Source of the DNA: a virus
Length of the DNA: 22,069 nt
Virus record (IMG/VR): IMGVR_UViG_3300035698_009487
Coordinates: 1 to 22,069 of that record
Direction: 5' to 3' (one strand)
Shown here: positions 13,000 through 18,665 of the stretch, piece by piece
Numbering within the stretch: the first letter of the stretch is position 1
Layout: each line of letters starts with the position of its first letter
Position numbers and translations under genes: made by a program
Notes under the pieces: generated by a model
Told to the model about the DNA's origin: nothing
The model's database searches: none
The model's input: only the letters and a program-made list of their open reading frames with translations

Positions 13000-15519
13000 C
13001 TAAAACGTCTTTGATTTTATGATTGCTTCTTTGTCTTTGCCCGTTGCGGCAACTTCAAGGCCATCTGATGATACAGGCAAATTATTCGTTGCGCCCTGTG
13101 TTTGCGCTCTGATTGTTGATTTACAATTATGATGTAATGGCGGCAAGAATGGCGTATTAATGTATTCCTCTTTGGTGAACACGCGGCCCGTTAGGTGCTT
13201 ACAAATGGGGCTTTTAGGGTCTGGATTCGTGAACACAAACGACTCTATGCCATTCAGGACTCCATCTTCCTGAAACACATCGTTTCTCACACCGTTCACC
13301 GATCCGCTGACCGCATTCACCGCTGCAACGTCATAAACGCCCTTGGCTATTTGTTCGCCATGCATACGCTTAAGCTCATCAATAAGATCATCGGCGCTCT
13401 CTTCGCTATCTATGCGCTGATTGAAAAAGAAATAAGACATTTTTTCAACGTCTGCAAAGTGTGTAGAGGCCAACAAAGCAACCTCGGCAAGTATTCTATC
13501 GCGCGTTGCTTTGGGCAGGTCTTTAATATCAGCAAGCTTTTCTGTGATGCCCAGTTCTTTTAAAACGTCACTTTGCGCTTGGTCTGAAACATCAACAAGG
13601 AAATCAGCAAGGGCTTTTTCGTATTCATCTGCACCGGGCATTTTAATCTTGAATATCTTTGCACGGCTATCGTTGGATTTCAGAGACTTTAAGAATAATT
13701 CCCTGAAATCCTTTGAATGCTTTGTAAGGCCGGATCTTATGATTTTTGCAAGCGGGTCTGATTTGCGCTTTATAAGCTGCGTTGCTTTTGTGGGCTTCTC
13801 AGCCAATTCAACTGCCCATTCGATGCCAGCCTCACCACCTAACGCTAGATATTCAATCGTCTTCTGTGTAGGCAGTCCCGTATCTTCTTTCAATTCCGGC
13901 CTGTAATGCTTTGCGTTTTCCTTGAATTCTGCAACCGTATCAATATCTGAAAGCTCCAAGCCCTCACCATCAGCGATTTTCTGCACCAATATTAAGAAGG
14001 ATTCAGATAATTCATAGTCAGTTTTGGCATAAATATCGAGCGCCTTACGAGCGTTTTCGCTTGCCTTGGCTGGTGGAGTGTCTAAGACTCTTTTTTTTAT
14101 AGGAGGGGGCCGCGCCGGGTTATCGCTTAGTTTTGGCGCGGCTTTTTTATCCGGCTCGTCATCATCCTGATCGGGGGTTGGGTTCTCAGGATCGGAATCG
14201 TCCGGGGCTGGCTCTTCATCTTGTGTATCGTCCTCTTGCTCACGTTCTATATCCGGGAACTTAAAGCGCTTATGTAGATACACCTCAAGGCGTTCGCTGG
14301 CTTCAATCGCGCCGGAACTAATTAGCGTGCTAACAACTTCGGCAAGCTCTTTGCCCGCTTTGTCATTTACGCCTGTAACTACAATTTTAGGAAAGAAATC
14401 ACGTTCACCGAATTTGGATCGGATGATCTTTTTCAAAACCTTAGATGTCAGTGCCTCGGAAATTTCAGCCGCAATAGTTTGCAGTGATGATAGAAACATA
14501 TCGCTTAAATCAGAGCCAAGGCTGAATGATCCAGAGTTTCCAGATACGCCAAGCTCCATGAAATTAGCAAGAAACGCCTTTGTCATTTCGATGTTCTCGC
14601 CATCAATAACGCGCTGCACCTTCTCAGGATCATGGGATAGCTTCAATTCGCTAATCTTAAATCCTTTTTCAAGAGCAATGTAGTTTTGTTGATTTGCTGC
14701 GAATCTCGCAAGCATCTTTTGGAATGCTTTCCACTGTGCAGAAAAATCGGATGTGTTGCGCAACGCGTCATCAATCTCGCCGACTGGTACGCCTGATGCG
14801 CAACGCTCAATGCCTATGCCTTGCAATTTTCTGTATAATGTTTTTCTAAAGTGATTGCCGTATATAGGCCGTAATGCTGATATGCCTTGAAAGTTTGAAC
14901 CCTCAAGATCGTTTGTCAGAACCAATAAGTTTTTGGCCGGAATGCTCACGTCTATTTGGTCATCACCTTGGGTAATCTGCCTAATATGACTCAACGCGCC
15001 GTTTCTCATCAAGTGCCATTCGAATATAGTTTTTGGTGATCTCCACGATAAATCCGCAAGGCCGTGATAGGTTCCGAAACGCGGATGATCAATAACAAGC
15101 TTATGAACGACCTCAAAAACACTATGCCCAAAATCAAGCATTGTAAGGCTTTCGCGCACAAACTGTCTAAATGTCTTGCTTTTTGATCCGTCCGAATAAC
15201 CTATATCATGGAATAAAACATGCTCGGCAAACGCGGCTATTTCTTTTTCTTCATCGCTATCATCAACGGATTCAACGCCCCATGAAGCGGAAAGTATCGG
15301 GCCTTTGACAATCCCCAAGAGCATTTTTATTTGCGCGTCACTCCGGCGCATTTCATCATATAACTCTATTCCGTCAAGGTCTGTAAGCTTAGCTAAGTAT
15401 TCCTCATCATAATATCCGGCGTTGTTTTTAACGCCTGTTGAGCCGATCTCTCTTGTATGAAGATCCTCAACGGTGTTTGAAGGGGCTTTTTCAAGGAATT
15501 TAAAGAGTCTCATTACCAT
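13000..15519 (-). CDS. Portal protein fused to Mu F-type head morphogenesis domain
   Basis: This encodes 839 aa. Residues 1 to about 425 are a DUF935-like portal (Mu gp29-like): LYDEMRRSDAQIKMLLGIVK, LTMLDFGHSVFEVVHK and LSWRSPKTIFEWHL. About 425-462 is an acidic Asp/Glu/Pro linker. About 480-839 is a helical region ending in the Mu F / SPP1 gp7 motif: NPDPKSPICKHLTGRVF, then PFLPPLHHNCKST (Cys773, His796, His797, Cys799). In Mu these are two genes; the frame here is open through both. The portal is the dodecameric DNA gate; the MuF part is a minor head protein that may be packed or cleaved. Start: ATG at 15519, overlapping the TerL stop by seven bases; a second ATG at 15513 is possible. Confidence 0.85.
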   Translation of the reverse strand: MVMRLFKFLEKAPSNTVEDLHTREIGSTGVKNNAGYYDEEYLAKLTDLDGIELYDEMRRSDAQIKMLLGIVKGPILSASWGVESVDDSDEEKEIAAFAEHVLFHDIGYSDGSKSKTFRQFVRESLTMLDFGHSVFEVVHKLVIDHPRFGTYHGLADLSWRSPKTIFEWHLMRNGALSHIRQITQGDDQIDVSIPAKNLLVLTNDLEGSNFQGISALRPIYGNHFRKTLYRKLQGIGIERCASGVPVGEIDDALRNTSDFSAQWKAFQKMLARFAANQQNYIALEKGFKISELKLSHDPEKVQRVIDGENIEMTKAFLANFMELGVSGNSGSFSLGSDLSDMFLSSLQTIAAEISEALTSKVLKKIIRSKFGERDFFPKIVVTGVNDKAGKELAEVVSTLISSGAIEASERLEVYLHKRFKFPDIEREQEDDTQDEEPAPDDSDPENPTPDQDDDEPDKKAAPKLSDNPARPPPIKKRVLDTPPAKASENARKALDIYAKTDYELSESFLILVQKIADGEGLELSDIDTVAEFKENAKHYRPELKEDTGLPTQKTIEYLALGGEAGIEWAVELAEKPTKATQLIKRKSDPLAKIIRSGLTKHSKDFRELFLKSLKSNDSRAKIFKIKMPGADEYEKALADFLVDVSDQAQSDVLKELGITEKLADIKDLPKATRDRILAEVALLASTHFADVEKMSYFFFNQRIDSEESADDLIDELKRMHGEQIAKGVYDVAAVNAVSGSVNGVRNDVFQEDGVLNGIESFVFTNPDPKSPICKHLTGRVFTKEEYINTPFLPPLHHNCKSTIRAQTQGATNNLPVSSDGLEVAATGKDKEAIIKSKTF

Positions 15520-18023
15520 TCTTTTTTCTCTAGATATCTTTCGTCAATTTCTGCGTTTGAAATATCGCTCATAGTCTCTCTTGAAAATCCAAGCCCTGCG
15601 CCCTCACCGACACGCAACAAATACTGACTTACTGTATCAGTAAAATCGTCATGTGTCACGGAGCCAGAACCCTTGAAAGATACTATCTCATTTATGCATT
15701 CTTGCAAATAGGGGCATCCCTGCCAAAAGAAAACATTCCCAGTTTCGAAATAAGTTGAGGCAAGGCTAAGGCGCTCAACCTTATCATTTGTACCGGGATT
15801 AAATGGAATGATGGGCAGTTGCGTTGAATCCTGTAAATCTTGAATAACCGCTATGCCGCTTGATTTATCCTCGATTATAATTTCATGCCCCGGCCTTTCT
15901 TCTTGCTTCTGTATGATGATTTTTTTCAAATCAGGATAGCGAATCCTGTCTTTGAAGATGTCCAGCAAATAATGACCGTTCTCAGTCTCAGCCCAATACG
16001 TTCCTACCGTGGGATCGTTTGATGATTTTTCTTTTGAGGCTGTATCCCACGACCAGCGAGTACGAATAATCTCATGCGGCAATGGTGCGCGATCAACAAT
16101 GCGAATCCAGTCACGATTTACGATTCCATCATTTGATGATACGTTCCAATTTCCGCCAAGGAGTCGCTCACGTTCAATCAGTGGCAAGGCCTGTAGCTTT
16201 GCGATATAATCAGGATCAACGCGCAATAGGGCCGGATTATCATATATGCTCGCCGGAATGAATGTGAAAGATAGAGGGCGGCAATCAGGCCCGAACTTAT
16301 CGACAAGTGTTTGTCTATCATCTGCCCAGTAGAGCGTTTCATCTTCGCGCACAAAATAACGTATTATGCCGCTGCGTTCTAATATTGGTAATCCAGTGTC
16401 GTTATCAATATACCAATCGACCATTTGACGTATCATATGATTTGGGTCAGGGTTGCACGTCCCTCTGAAATAAGGCCGAACACCGCAAAGCGATCTATTC
16501 CGGGATAGCATATAGAATATTTGTTTTTCGGTAAAATGTGTAATCTCATCCATGCAAACCAATGGGATTTGCGAGCCTTGCCAGTCATAACAATTATGCT
16601 CGTATTGCATTTGTGAGAATGTGACTTTTGAAGTGTCTCCACCGAACCGCCAATCAAGGCGCGGCGATTGTCTGGATCTACCGCCTACGTTTGGGTAGAT
16701 CTTTTGGCTCTCATCCCATAGTCCGCCCTGATTTGTGATCTGCGGCATTGTGCGCCGGAAAAACACTGCGCCAAAATCCTTAACATCCACATTACGCAAA
16801 GGCTCCATGAGCAAAGCCCACGTGTTATGTGTTGTTATGAAATTATCTCCGACAAGAAATAGTCCGTCCGGTGAATCTACGGTTATACACCGAACCCTCT
16901 CAGGCTTTACCAATTCGCAGGATTTTATGAAATACCTCTTTGCGCTTGGCCTTACCTCAAGCCTTTGCCGCGCCCTCTTTCTTCCCAACCAAAAAACAGA
17001 AACCTCGCTTCTGAAATTAATCCGGTATCTGGTTCCTTTTTTCACGCCATATAAAACGCTATCGCTTTCCGTCATTGATGTTTTTATTCCGAGCGATGAC
17101 GCAAGCCGGACAAAATCAATAGCCAGCCTTTCAAGGGTTACGCAAAATTCAAGCCTCCCGTTCTCCCCTGCATAGCCATCTGTATCCATAAGGCCGCGCA
17201 AAACCTCAAATCTATCTTCAATCGAATATTGAAAAACGTAATCTGGTATATGCTTATTATTCAATAGGCCGTGTTTTCTAAGGTCTGTGGTTAGGCCAGC
17301 AATGCCATATACGTATTTCTGCGATTGCCATTTTTTAACAGTTCTGCCCTTAGATTTAATCCTCTCTATCACCTCAATATCGGCTGATGTTATAGCCCCC
17401 TCGCAGCTGGTTCCATCGCCAAGCCATGCCCCCAAAAGATACGGGTCTATATCATTCTTTAATACAAAAAAATCACTCGGGCTGCAAACATCTATGCTGT
17501 GGTTTAACGCGCCGCGCTTGCTTAACAGCGTTCCATCAATATCCTGTGTTGTTTTCACGCTACCAACGACCTTACGGCTGTAAAATGCCTCTTGATTGCG
17601 CTTCACCAAGTCAGGCCGAGCGCCTTTGGATGCCTTCTTTCTGTTCTTGCGTCTTTTAGCTCTATTCTCATCTAATGATGAGCGCAAATAATCCCTGTCT
17701 TTTTCTGTGTGAGTAAACCAAAGATGATGAGCGTCCGCCAAAATGTTCGCGCCGTTATCAAATCTAACATCATACAGTTTTTCTGGAGTGTATGGATCAT
17801 GAGCCTTTAAAACCTCAACTAGAATTCCAGAGGGAGAATATACAAAATCACCACATTGAACATCGCCCATAGTTTTCCAGCCATCGCACGTAAGAATCGG
17901 CGTATGCAAAGCAAGGGCTTTACCGCCACCGGCTTGCCCGCCGTAAATGGCGAAATCTGCGGGGCAACTAAGTAGTTGAGTTTGCGGCCCCGGTTGCGGC
18001 CTGATCTCTATTCGTTTTTTCAA
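15513..18023 (-). CDS. Terminase large subunit (TerL) containing an intein
   Basis: The precursor has 836 aa; removal of the intein (residues 36-400) leaves a 471-aa TerL. Host motifs: Walker A GGQAGGGK (28-35) continued by Thr401 after splicing, Walker B PLVCMDE (487-493), and nuclease acidic residues Asp660 (RWSWDTASK), Asp719 (IIIEDKSSG) and Asp793 or Asp796 (HDDFTDT). TerL packages DNA into the prohead with ATP and cuts concatemers. The start is TTG at 18023: the in-frame stop TAG is only three codons upstream, so no ATG is available before the conserved N-terminus IEIRPQPGPQ. AGGAG lies 13 bases upstream. The gene overlaps the RHH-like gene by 56 bases and the portal by seven. Without splicing the P-loop would be broken and TerL inactive. 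Confidence 0.93.
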   Translation of the reverse strand: MKKRIEIRPQPGPQTQLLSCPADFAIYGGQAGGGKALALHTPILTCDGWKTMGDVQCGDFVYSPSGILVEVLKAHDPYTPEKLYDVRFDNGANILADAHHLWFTHTEKDRDYLRSSLDENRAKRRKNRKKASKGARPDLVKRNQEAFYSRKVVGSVKTTQDIDGTLLSKRGALNHSIDVCSPSDFFVLKNDIDPYLLGAWLGDGTSCEGAITSADIEVIERIKSKGRTVKKWQSQKYVYGIAGLTTDLRKHGLLNNKHIPDYVFQYSIEDRFEVLRGLMDTDGYAGENGRLEFCVTLERLAIDFVRLASSLGIKTSMTESDSVLYGVKKGTRYRINFRSEVSVFWLGRKRARQRLEVRPSAKRYFIKSCELVKPERVRCITVDSPDGLFLVGDNFITTHNTWALLMEPLRNVDVKDFGAVFFRRTMPQITNQGGLWDESQKIYPNVGGRSRQSPRLDWRFGGDTSKVTFSQMQYEHNCYDWQGSQIPLVCMDEITHFTEKQIFYMLSRNRSLCGVRPYFRGTCNPDPNHMIRQMVDWYIDNDTGLPILERSGIIRYFVREDETLYWADDRQTLVDKFGPDCRPLSFTFIPASIYDNPALLRVDPDYIAKLQALPLIERERLLGGNWNVSSNDGIVNRDWIRIVDRAPLPHEIIRTRWSWDTASKEKSSNDPTVGTYWAETENGHYLLDIFKDRIRYPDLKKIIIQKQEERPGHEIIIEDKSSGIAVIQDLQDSTQLPIIPFNPGTNDKVERLSLASTYFETGNVFFWQGCPYLQECINEIVSFKGSGSVTHDDFTDTVSQYLLRVGEGAGLGFSRETMSDISNAEIDERYLEKKEW
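16824..17918 (-). mobile_element. LAGLIDADG intein in the TerL Walker A motif, class 3 type
   Basis: Residues Ala36-Asn400 of TerL (365 aa). Position 1 is Ala, not Cys/Ser, so class 1 splicing cannot start there. Block A is ALALHTPILTCDGWKTMGD. Block B reads ADAHHLW, placing Trp102 two after His100 (B12). Block F reads VRCITVDSPDGLFLVG, placing Cys379 at F4. Block G reads FITTHN followed by Thr401, placing Thr398 at G5. This W-C-T set defines class 3 inteins, where the block F Cys makes the branched intermediate. A homing endonuclease is present: YLLGAWLGDG (195-204) and VLRGLMDTDG (274-283) with Asp203 and Asp282. The insertion site is between Gly-Lys and Thr of the P-loop. Both endonuclease motifs look intact, so it may still be mobile. 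Confidence 0.9.
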
Positions 18024-18192
18024 GATTGTCTAAATGCTCCTGATAGTTGTTTTTCAATATATCAGAAACCACCGATGATATAGAGGGCGCAAAGCCTTTT
18101 TCTACCGCAGCCGTTATGCCTTCCTTGATGTTCAAATCAATGTAGGCGATTACTCGTTTTTTATCCCTGAAATCTTTATGATACGCGCTCAT
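17968..18192 (-). CDS. Small ribbon-helix-helix-like protein overlapping the TerL start
   Basis: This encodes 74 aa starting MSAYHKDFRDKKRVIAYIDL. Its ATG overlaps the previous stop as ATGA, so it is translationally coupled, and its 3' end overlaps TerL by 56 bases in another frame. Residues 13-21 (RVIAYIDLN) suggest a beta strand. Then come helix A (IKEGITAAVEKGF) and helix B (SISSVVSDILKNNYQ), the order of ribbon-helix-helix DNA-binding proteins. The tail (TNRDQAATGAANSTT) is unstructured. It could be a regulator, or a DNA-binding accessory of packaging. The fold is inferred from pattern only. Confidence 0.55.
   Translation of the reverse strand: MSAYHKDFRDKKRVIAYIDLNIKEGITAAVEKGFAPSISSVVSDILKNNYQEHLDNLEKTNRDQAATGAANSTT
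18037..18041 (-). promoter_or_regulatory. Shine-Dalgarno assigned to the TTG start of TerL
   Basis: AGGAG on the coding strand inside the upstream RHH-like gene, 13 bases before TTG at 18023. The spacing is long. It is the only purine-rich site near the short permitted start region, so initiation may be inefficient or helped by coupling to the overlapping gene. Confidence 0.45.
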
Positions 18193-18665
18193 GCAGCGGG
18201 CTTTCTCTTGGCTTCACCGATATAAATGTGCATTTCGCCTTTTTCATCAAGCCGGATAGCGTCATCATTTACAAACTCATCCGGAACCCACTTCTTGATG
18301 GCCTCGTATGTGCCGCAAGCGCTCCTGTGAGAGTATGCATCAACGTTTCTTTTAACACCAAGGCGGCGAAATTCAACGGGAATGCCTAGTAATTGAGCGC
18401 GCTCGATGCCTTCAATCATGCCCTGTGATACGCCGAAATCAGTATAAACAGCGACAACATCGGCTGACTGCATCCACGCATAACCAGCGCTCATGCTCTG
18501 CTTGCGCTCGGCTGGTATATCATCATCTAGAAATTCAGTATAAAACCCGTGGCTTGCAAATGCCGCTTCCCCAAGGTTCATTGAGTGCTTTAAGGCTTTC
18601 TTGAGGTAGGCCATGTTCGCCTCAACATCGCCAGCATATGGCGATTCGATAATAACTCTTTTCAT
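18189..18665 (-). CDS. Nucleoside 2-deoxyribosyltransferase-like protein (DUF4406/DUF7768 type)
   Basis: This encodes 158 aa starting MKRVIIESPYAGDVEANMAY, joined by ATGA overlaps to both neighbours. The N-terminal strand VIIESPYAG, the paired helices and the segment WMQSADVVAVYTDFGVSQGM then IEGIERAQLLGIPVEFRRLG resemble the nucleoside 2-deoxyribosyltransferase-like Rossmann fold common in phages. There the Ser-x-Gly-Met region and a Glu shape the base or nucleoside pocket. In this protein SQGMIEGIE fills that position. Enzymatic activity is not assured, since many phage members are uncharacterised. A role in nucleotide salvage or modification, or in a metabolite-based defence or anti-defence function, is possible but speculative. 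Confidence 0.75.
   Translation of the reverse strand: MKRVIIESPYAGDVEANMAYLKKALKHSMNLGEAAFASHGFYTEFLDDDIPAERKQSMSAGYAWMQSADVVAVYTDFGVSQGMIEGIERAQLLGIPVEFRRLGVKRNVDAYSHRSACGTYEAIKKWVPDEFVNDDAIRLDEKGEMHIYIGEAKRKPAA

Follow-up and report, generated by a model that had tools for sequence, protein, structure and literature searches.

Inteins within the terminase large subunit (TerL) are known from several phages. Kelley et al. (2016, PMC5050341) assayed mycobacteriophage TerL inteins for splicing and DNA cleavage; that paper describes the TerL1-a site as an insertion that separates the Walker A Lys from the Thr (K^T), reports the splicing of TerL inteins, and assigns several TerL1 inteins to class 3, an assignment that holds for the TerL1 inteins and not specifically for TerL1-a. 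The TerL of cyanophage Mic1 contains two inteins, for which packaging control was proposed (PMC7156551), the large terminases of Rak2 and K64-1 carry inteins with LAGLIDADG (PMC5259590), and TerL inteins have been noted in crAss-like phages (PMC7886860). K^T Walker A TerL inteins, class 3 TerL inteins, and packaging control by TerL inteins are thus already in print. Here, we analyzed the IMG/VR virus record IMGVR_UViG_3300035698_009487, whose full length of 22,069 bases is referred to as the window, and found an insert in the Walker A motif of its TerL. This insert is very probably a class 3 intein that is intact and includes a LAGLIDADG homing endonuclease with two motifs; it would be spliced out of TerL and would spread by homing. 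The original prediction for this locus, made from the DNA alone, was right that the class is not new.

The TerL precursor comprises 836 amino acids (aa) and has a TTG start. Its open reading frame (ORF) matched PHROG 979 (terminase large subunit) with an E-value of 2.6e-111, and Pfam revealed a Terminase_6N domain and a Terminase_6C nuclease domain. Residues 36-400 of the precursor are not terminase sequence and lie between GGQAGGGK and TWALLMEP, where they split the Walker A motif GGQAGGGK^T between Lys35 and Thr401. Joining of the flanking parts gives a predicted TerL of 471 aa in which the Walker A motif is restored as GGQAGGGKT, and TerL outside the insert is intact as judged by Pfam and PHROG. 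The frame, coordinates (16824-17918), and residue numbers of the original prediction were exact; the separation of GGQAGGGK from Thr401 with Thr as the +1 residue was borne out, and the lengths that it gave for the spliced TerL and the intein (471 and 365 aa) agree with the sequence.

For the class assignment, we used the class 3 definition of PMC7664689, PMC6195587, and PMC5050341. The first residue of the intein is Ala, leaving no Cys or Ser nucleophile at this position, and the terminal His364-Asn365 and the nucleophilic +1 Thr are present. A phmmer search against the PDB returned the mycobacterial class 3 DnaB inteins 6bs8 and 6rix as the top matches (E 1.5e-14); the alignment was gapless from residue 1 through His65 and Trp67, and VRCITVDSPDGLFLVGDNFITTHN of the intein aligned with blocks F and G of both structures. 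C344, T363, H364, and N365 aligned with the block F Cys and the THN of Mycobacterium smegmatis (Msm) DnaBi1, and H65 and W67 aligned with its His65 and Trp67. In a profile search built from 41 sequences, the E-values were approximately 1e-41 for 6rix and 6bs8 and approximately 1e-17 for PI-SceI. The original prediction had deduced class 3 from the Ala start and the triplet of Trp102, Cys379, and Thr398 in precursor numbering (W67, C344, and T363 of the intein) and had set beforehand, as a refutation test, the question of whether Cys379 occupies block F position 4; the alignment to Msm DnaBi1 places it there.

W67, C344, T363, H65, H364, and N365 were invariant among 24 diverse homologues. In an alignment of 178 rows drawn from IMG/VR, annotated phages, and bacterial genomes, the Trp, Cys, and Thr of the triplet (WCT) were each present in 178/178 rows, the last residues were THN in 175, and Ala1 was found in 115; the +1 residue of the relatives was Ser in 89 cases and Thr in 88. 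We also considered whether the insert might be a non-splicing HINT pseudogene, or a class 1 or class 2 intein misread as class 3, in which case TerL would be broken. A class 3 pseudogene intein, Arsp-FB24 Arth_1007, is on record (PMC3196547), but position 1 of the window intein carries neither Cys nor Ser, every class 3 residue and both junctions are preserved, the alignment with class 3 homologues spans the whole intein, and the remaining TerL is intact, which makes this explanation extremely improbable. Judged by its sequence, the insert is a real, intact, and selfish class 3 intein.

A pattern search for GGGKTWALLMEP identified at least 120 IMG/VR stretches with an empty site, which reads IYGGAAGGGKTWALLMEP in locus L030. 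The joined 471-aa TerL aligned unbroken across the junction with many empty-site TerLs at 42-44% identity, and its alignment with the TerL of L065 spanned positions 7 to 468 without a break at 42% identity. The intein boundaries were therefore confirmed by the empty sites. At the insertion point, there was no DNA signal beyond the G-K-T/S codon constraint, as the wobble positions of Gly and Thr/Ser carried approximately 0.1 bit, and near-identical DNA was absent from the annotated phages.

Three points weigh against the reading of the insert as a splicing and homing class 3 intein. A near-identical empty allele or native homing site was sought without success, the L029 TerL, which is 94% identical, beginning just past the site. 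Splicing, cleavage, and homing are steps that we infer. Because a class 3 sequence was the query that retrieved the relatives, the invariance of WCT is in part a product of this selection; it still carries weight, as the mean column identity of the 24 homologues is only 38%.

The claim of an intact LAGLIDADG endonuclease held up well. Asp is found at position 168 in 171/178 rows and at position 247 in 178/178, and both residues are kept in the window intein, as is Lys222. With the intein alone as the query, Pfam LAGLIDADG_3 and Hom_end exceeded their cut-offs. An AlphaFold2 model calculated on the alignment (predicted local distance difference test, pLDDT, 94.8; predicted template modelling score, pTM, 0.90) consists of a splicing domain and a LAGLIDADG endonuclease resembling PI-SceI and I-DmoI. 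The best Foldseek fold match over both domains was PI-SceI, with a template modelling score normalized to the query (TMq) of 0.72. For the splicing domain, the class 3 DnaB inteins 6rix and 6riy were matched with target-normalized scores (TMt) of 0.79-0.83 and 6bs8 chain B with 0.81, and the endonuclease part matched I-DmoI. By sequence and predicted fold, the endonuclease is intact. An immobile remnant, which splices but has a dead endonuclease and is inherited only vertically, would fit the single known sequence of the window intein and an endonuclease activity that is predicted only. This alternative is unlikely, since both catalytic Asp residues and Lys222 are kept, the predicted fold is intact over its full length, and a close intein that resides in a less related TerL implies transfer. 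Decay does occur in relatives, where the first Asp is substituted in 7/178 rows, but was not seen in the window intein.

Relatives of the intein were abundant. We found them in 753 phage records, 457 of which matched over at least 80% of the intein length, in at least 589 confirmed IMG/VR stretches, in bacterial genomes (323 confirmed by profile scan), and in 34 plasmid records; unlike the profile scan, a scan of the bacterial genomes with the single protein revealed no relative. The window intein is thus an ordinary member of its group, because inteins of this kind, known before or found here, number in the hundreds. An insert of 365 codons that keeps the frame within a conserved motif, the E-value of 1.5e-14 to the PDB structures, and the 457 phage records exclude chance. 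Among the 177 relatives having both junctions, 145 were located at a G-K^[T/S] site, and their host proteins were TerL, DnaB, apparent SNF2-type proteins, and other ATPases.

Several variants were observed among these relatives. Twenty-two of the 145 G-K^[T/S] loci (L251, L252, L255, L257, L262, L264, and others) share one conserved LEGK^SSLGRL site of a protein; these class 3 inteins carry an endonuclease, occur in Chloroflexota and Actinomycetota genomes, and have a flanking motif without the first Walker A Gly. In the TerL-like loci L209, L222, L223, L227, and L235, the motif is MPPRH^TKS, with no Lys directly before the class 3 intein, and the intein position looks equivalent to the K^T site. 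The class 3 type inteins of L300 and L314 at GSGK^T are approximately 570 aa long, approximately 200 aa above the usual length, and those of L211, L284, and L296 have Ser or Cys in place of the penultimate His (TSN, TCN).

Among the matches listed, the closest intein was that of L160 (IMGVR_UViG_3300018080_000831), which is 52% identical and occupies the same site. The TerLs of L160 and the window are only 39% identical, whereas empty TerLs such as that of L065 are closer (42%). The TerLs of L160 and L033 are 53% identical and interrupted at the same site, but their class 3 inteins share only 23% identity. In the TerL tree, a 98% branch grouped the window protein with 20 empty TerLs and left L160 and L033 outside, while the window and L160 inteins were sisters (99%) in the intein tree; both trees were quick searches without bootstrap, and branches elsewhere in the TerL tree are long. 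As the intein and TerL relationships conflict at the same position, the inteins appear to have reached this site more than once. The simplest reading of these sequence comparisons is that class 3 inteins arrived there horizontally and repeatedly.

By analogy with the class 3 mechanism, Cys344 in block F would attack the peptide bond preceding Ala1 to form a branched thioester, and the N-extein would be transferred to the +1 residue, Thr401. Asn365 would then cyclize with the assistance of His364, and the exteins would be joined as GGQAGGGKT, giving a TerL with a complete Walker A motif. In mixed infections, the intein endonuclease may cut intein-less TerL genes around GGN-AAR|ACN, and repair of the cut gene would copy the intein in. 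The ATP-binding site may serve as a refuge, as its conserved sequence would recur in all targets and inexact removal of the intein would destroy the motor.

TerL without a complete Walker A motif should be inactive. The original prediction that unspliced TerL cannot hydrolyze ATP is sound, with a parallel in the P-loop intein of archaeal RadA, which disrupts the ATPase (as cited in PMC6195587). Splicing was also suggested to act as a check on late gene activity. If splicing were conditional, the intein would sense the cell state (redox, metal, or DNA), release active TerL late, and gate packaging. In addition to the incomplete Walker A motif before splicing, this is in line with the inhibition of the M. 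smegmatis class 3 P-loop intein DnaBi1 by H2O2 (PMC6195587) and the same idea put forward for Mic1 TerL (PMC7156551); because of the latter proposal, the packaging check is not original. However, the arrest of DnaBi1 by oxidation proceeds via a Cys48-Cys118 disulfide (PMC6195587), and the partner Cys48 is replaced by Leu48 in the window intein and by Val in L160, although Cys is the commonest residue at this position (114/178). Moreover, many related phages lack the intein, the inteins at the same site are dissimilar enough for separate arrivals, as parasites would be, and no switch-like sequence feature was found in the window intein. We therefore consider conditional splicing very unlikely; the proposed check on late gene activity finds no support in view of the horizontal spread, the common empty relatives, and Leu48. 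A redox switch of the DnaBi1 type was rejected for the window intein, as the partner Cys is absent. The window intein has six cysteines besides Cys344, and another redox route is therefore possible. It is nevertheless highly doubtful that slow splicing, or splicing conditional on late infection through a switch that does not involve the Cys48 disulfide, times DNA packaging.

Table 1. Features of the interrupted TerL gene (window positions; residues numbered in the intein unless stated)
Feature	Position	Strand	Remarks
TerL precursor gene	15513..18023	-	836 aa, TTG start; Terminase_6N 401-641, Terminase_6C 658-802
N-extein	17919..18023	-	35 aa; ends in GGQAGGGK, first Walker A part at 17919-17942
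Class 3 intein	16824..17918	-	365 aa, A1 to N365 (precursor 36-400)
Leu48	17775..17777	-	position of redox-partner Cys48 in Msm DnaBi1
His65 (block B)	17724-17726	-	
Trp67 (block B12, W of WCT)	17718..17720	-	precursor 102
First LAGLIDADG motif, LLGAWLGDG	17412..17438	-	catalytic Asp168
Second LAGLIDADG motif, VLRGLMDTDG	17175..17204	-	catalytic Asp247
Cys344 (block F4, initiating nucleophile of class 3)	16887..16889	-	precursor 379
Thr363-His364-Asn365 (block G, THN; T of WCT and cyclizing Asn)	16824..16832	-	Thr363 is precursor 398
+1 Thr (precursor Thr401)	16821..16823	-	second nucleophile and Walker A Thr of TerL
C-extein	15516..16823	-	436 aa; remaining ATPase and nuclease

The genes near TerL encode a terminase small subunit, a Mu-type portal, and a Mu-type protease, and the window derives from a tailed phage that is uncultivated and has head genes of the Mu type. 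A DUF7768 protein (E 6.8e-29), a family with no assigned function, is encoded between the small and large terminase genes at 18189-18665 (-). A 74-aa ORF without a family match lies at 17968-18192 (-), and approximately 50 bases at its end extend over the TTG start of TerL. The portal gene is an 839-aa ORF at 13000-15519 (-), in which the Mu-type portal domain at 52-418 is followed by a long C-terminal part (..SPICKHLTGRVFTKEEY..LHHNCKSTIRA..) that resembles the MuF minor head protein by eye. This ORF may encode a portal-minor head fusion; no significant match came from a search of its end for a separate minor-head domain, and no library model confirmed one.

PI-SceI, which splices by the class 1 pathway and resides in the yeast V-ATPase, has the same two-domain build as the window intein. 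The TerL intein of L160, the closest of the matches listed, shares the K^[T/S] position in a TerL related to that of the window as well as WCT and LAGLIDADG, and its identity extends over the full length, although its +1 residue is Ser rather than Thr and its TerL is only 39% identical. DnaBi1 of M. smegmatis and MchDnaB1 (6bs8, 6rix) likewise belong to class 3, are inserted in the P-loop, and share the equally numbered W67, a gapless alignment of blocks A and B, and a common splicing-domain fold, whereas they are mini-inteins without an endonuclease and contain the Cys48 that is absent here. The DnaB intein of Brevibacterium phage Rousseau (OV696622) is 37% identical over all 365 residues, lies at GK^T, and carries LAGLIDADG, but its host protein is the replicative helicase. 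In Mic1, as in the window, the ATPase domain of TerL is interrupted, and one of the Mic1 inteins has an endonuclease; Mic1 differs in having two inteins, which are apparently not class 3 because their boundaries are marked by Cys (PMC7156551). The mycobacteriophage TerL1 proteins (PMC5050341) are of the Terminase_1 type from actinobacterial phages, in contrast to the Terminase_6N/6C TerL of the window with its Mu-type portal and protease. This locus leaves the overall picture unchanged and adds, from an uncultivated phage, a Terminase_6 TerL that carries a class 3 intein whose endonuclease is predicted to be intact. It also offers a clear natural case of class 3 inteins apparently arriving separately and repeatedly at one Walker A site, which is useful for studies of homing and of intein persistence in ATPases.
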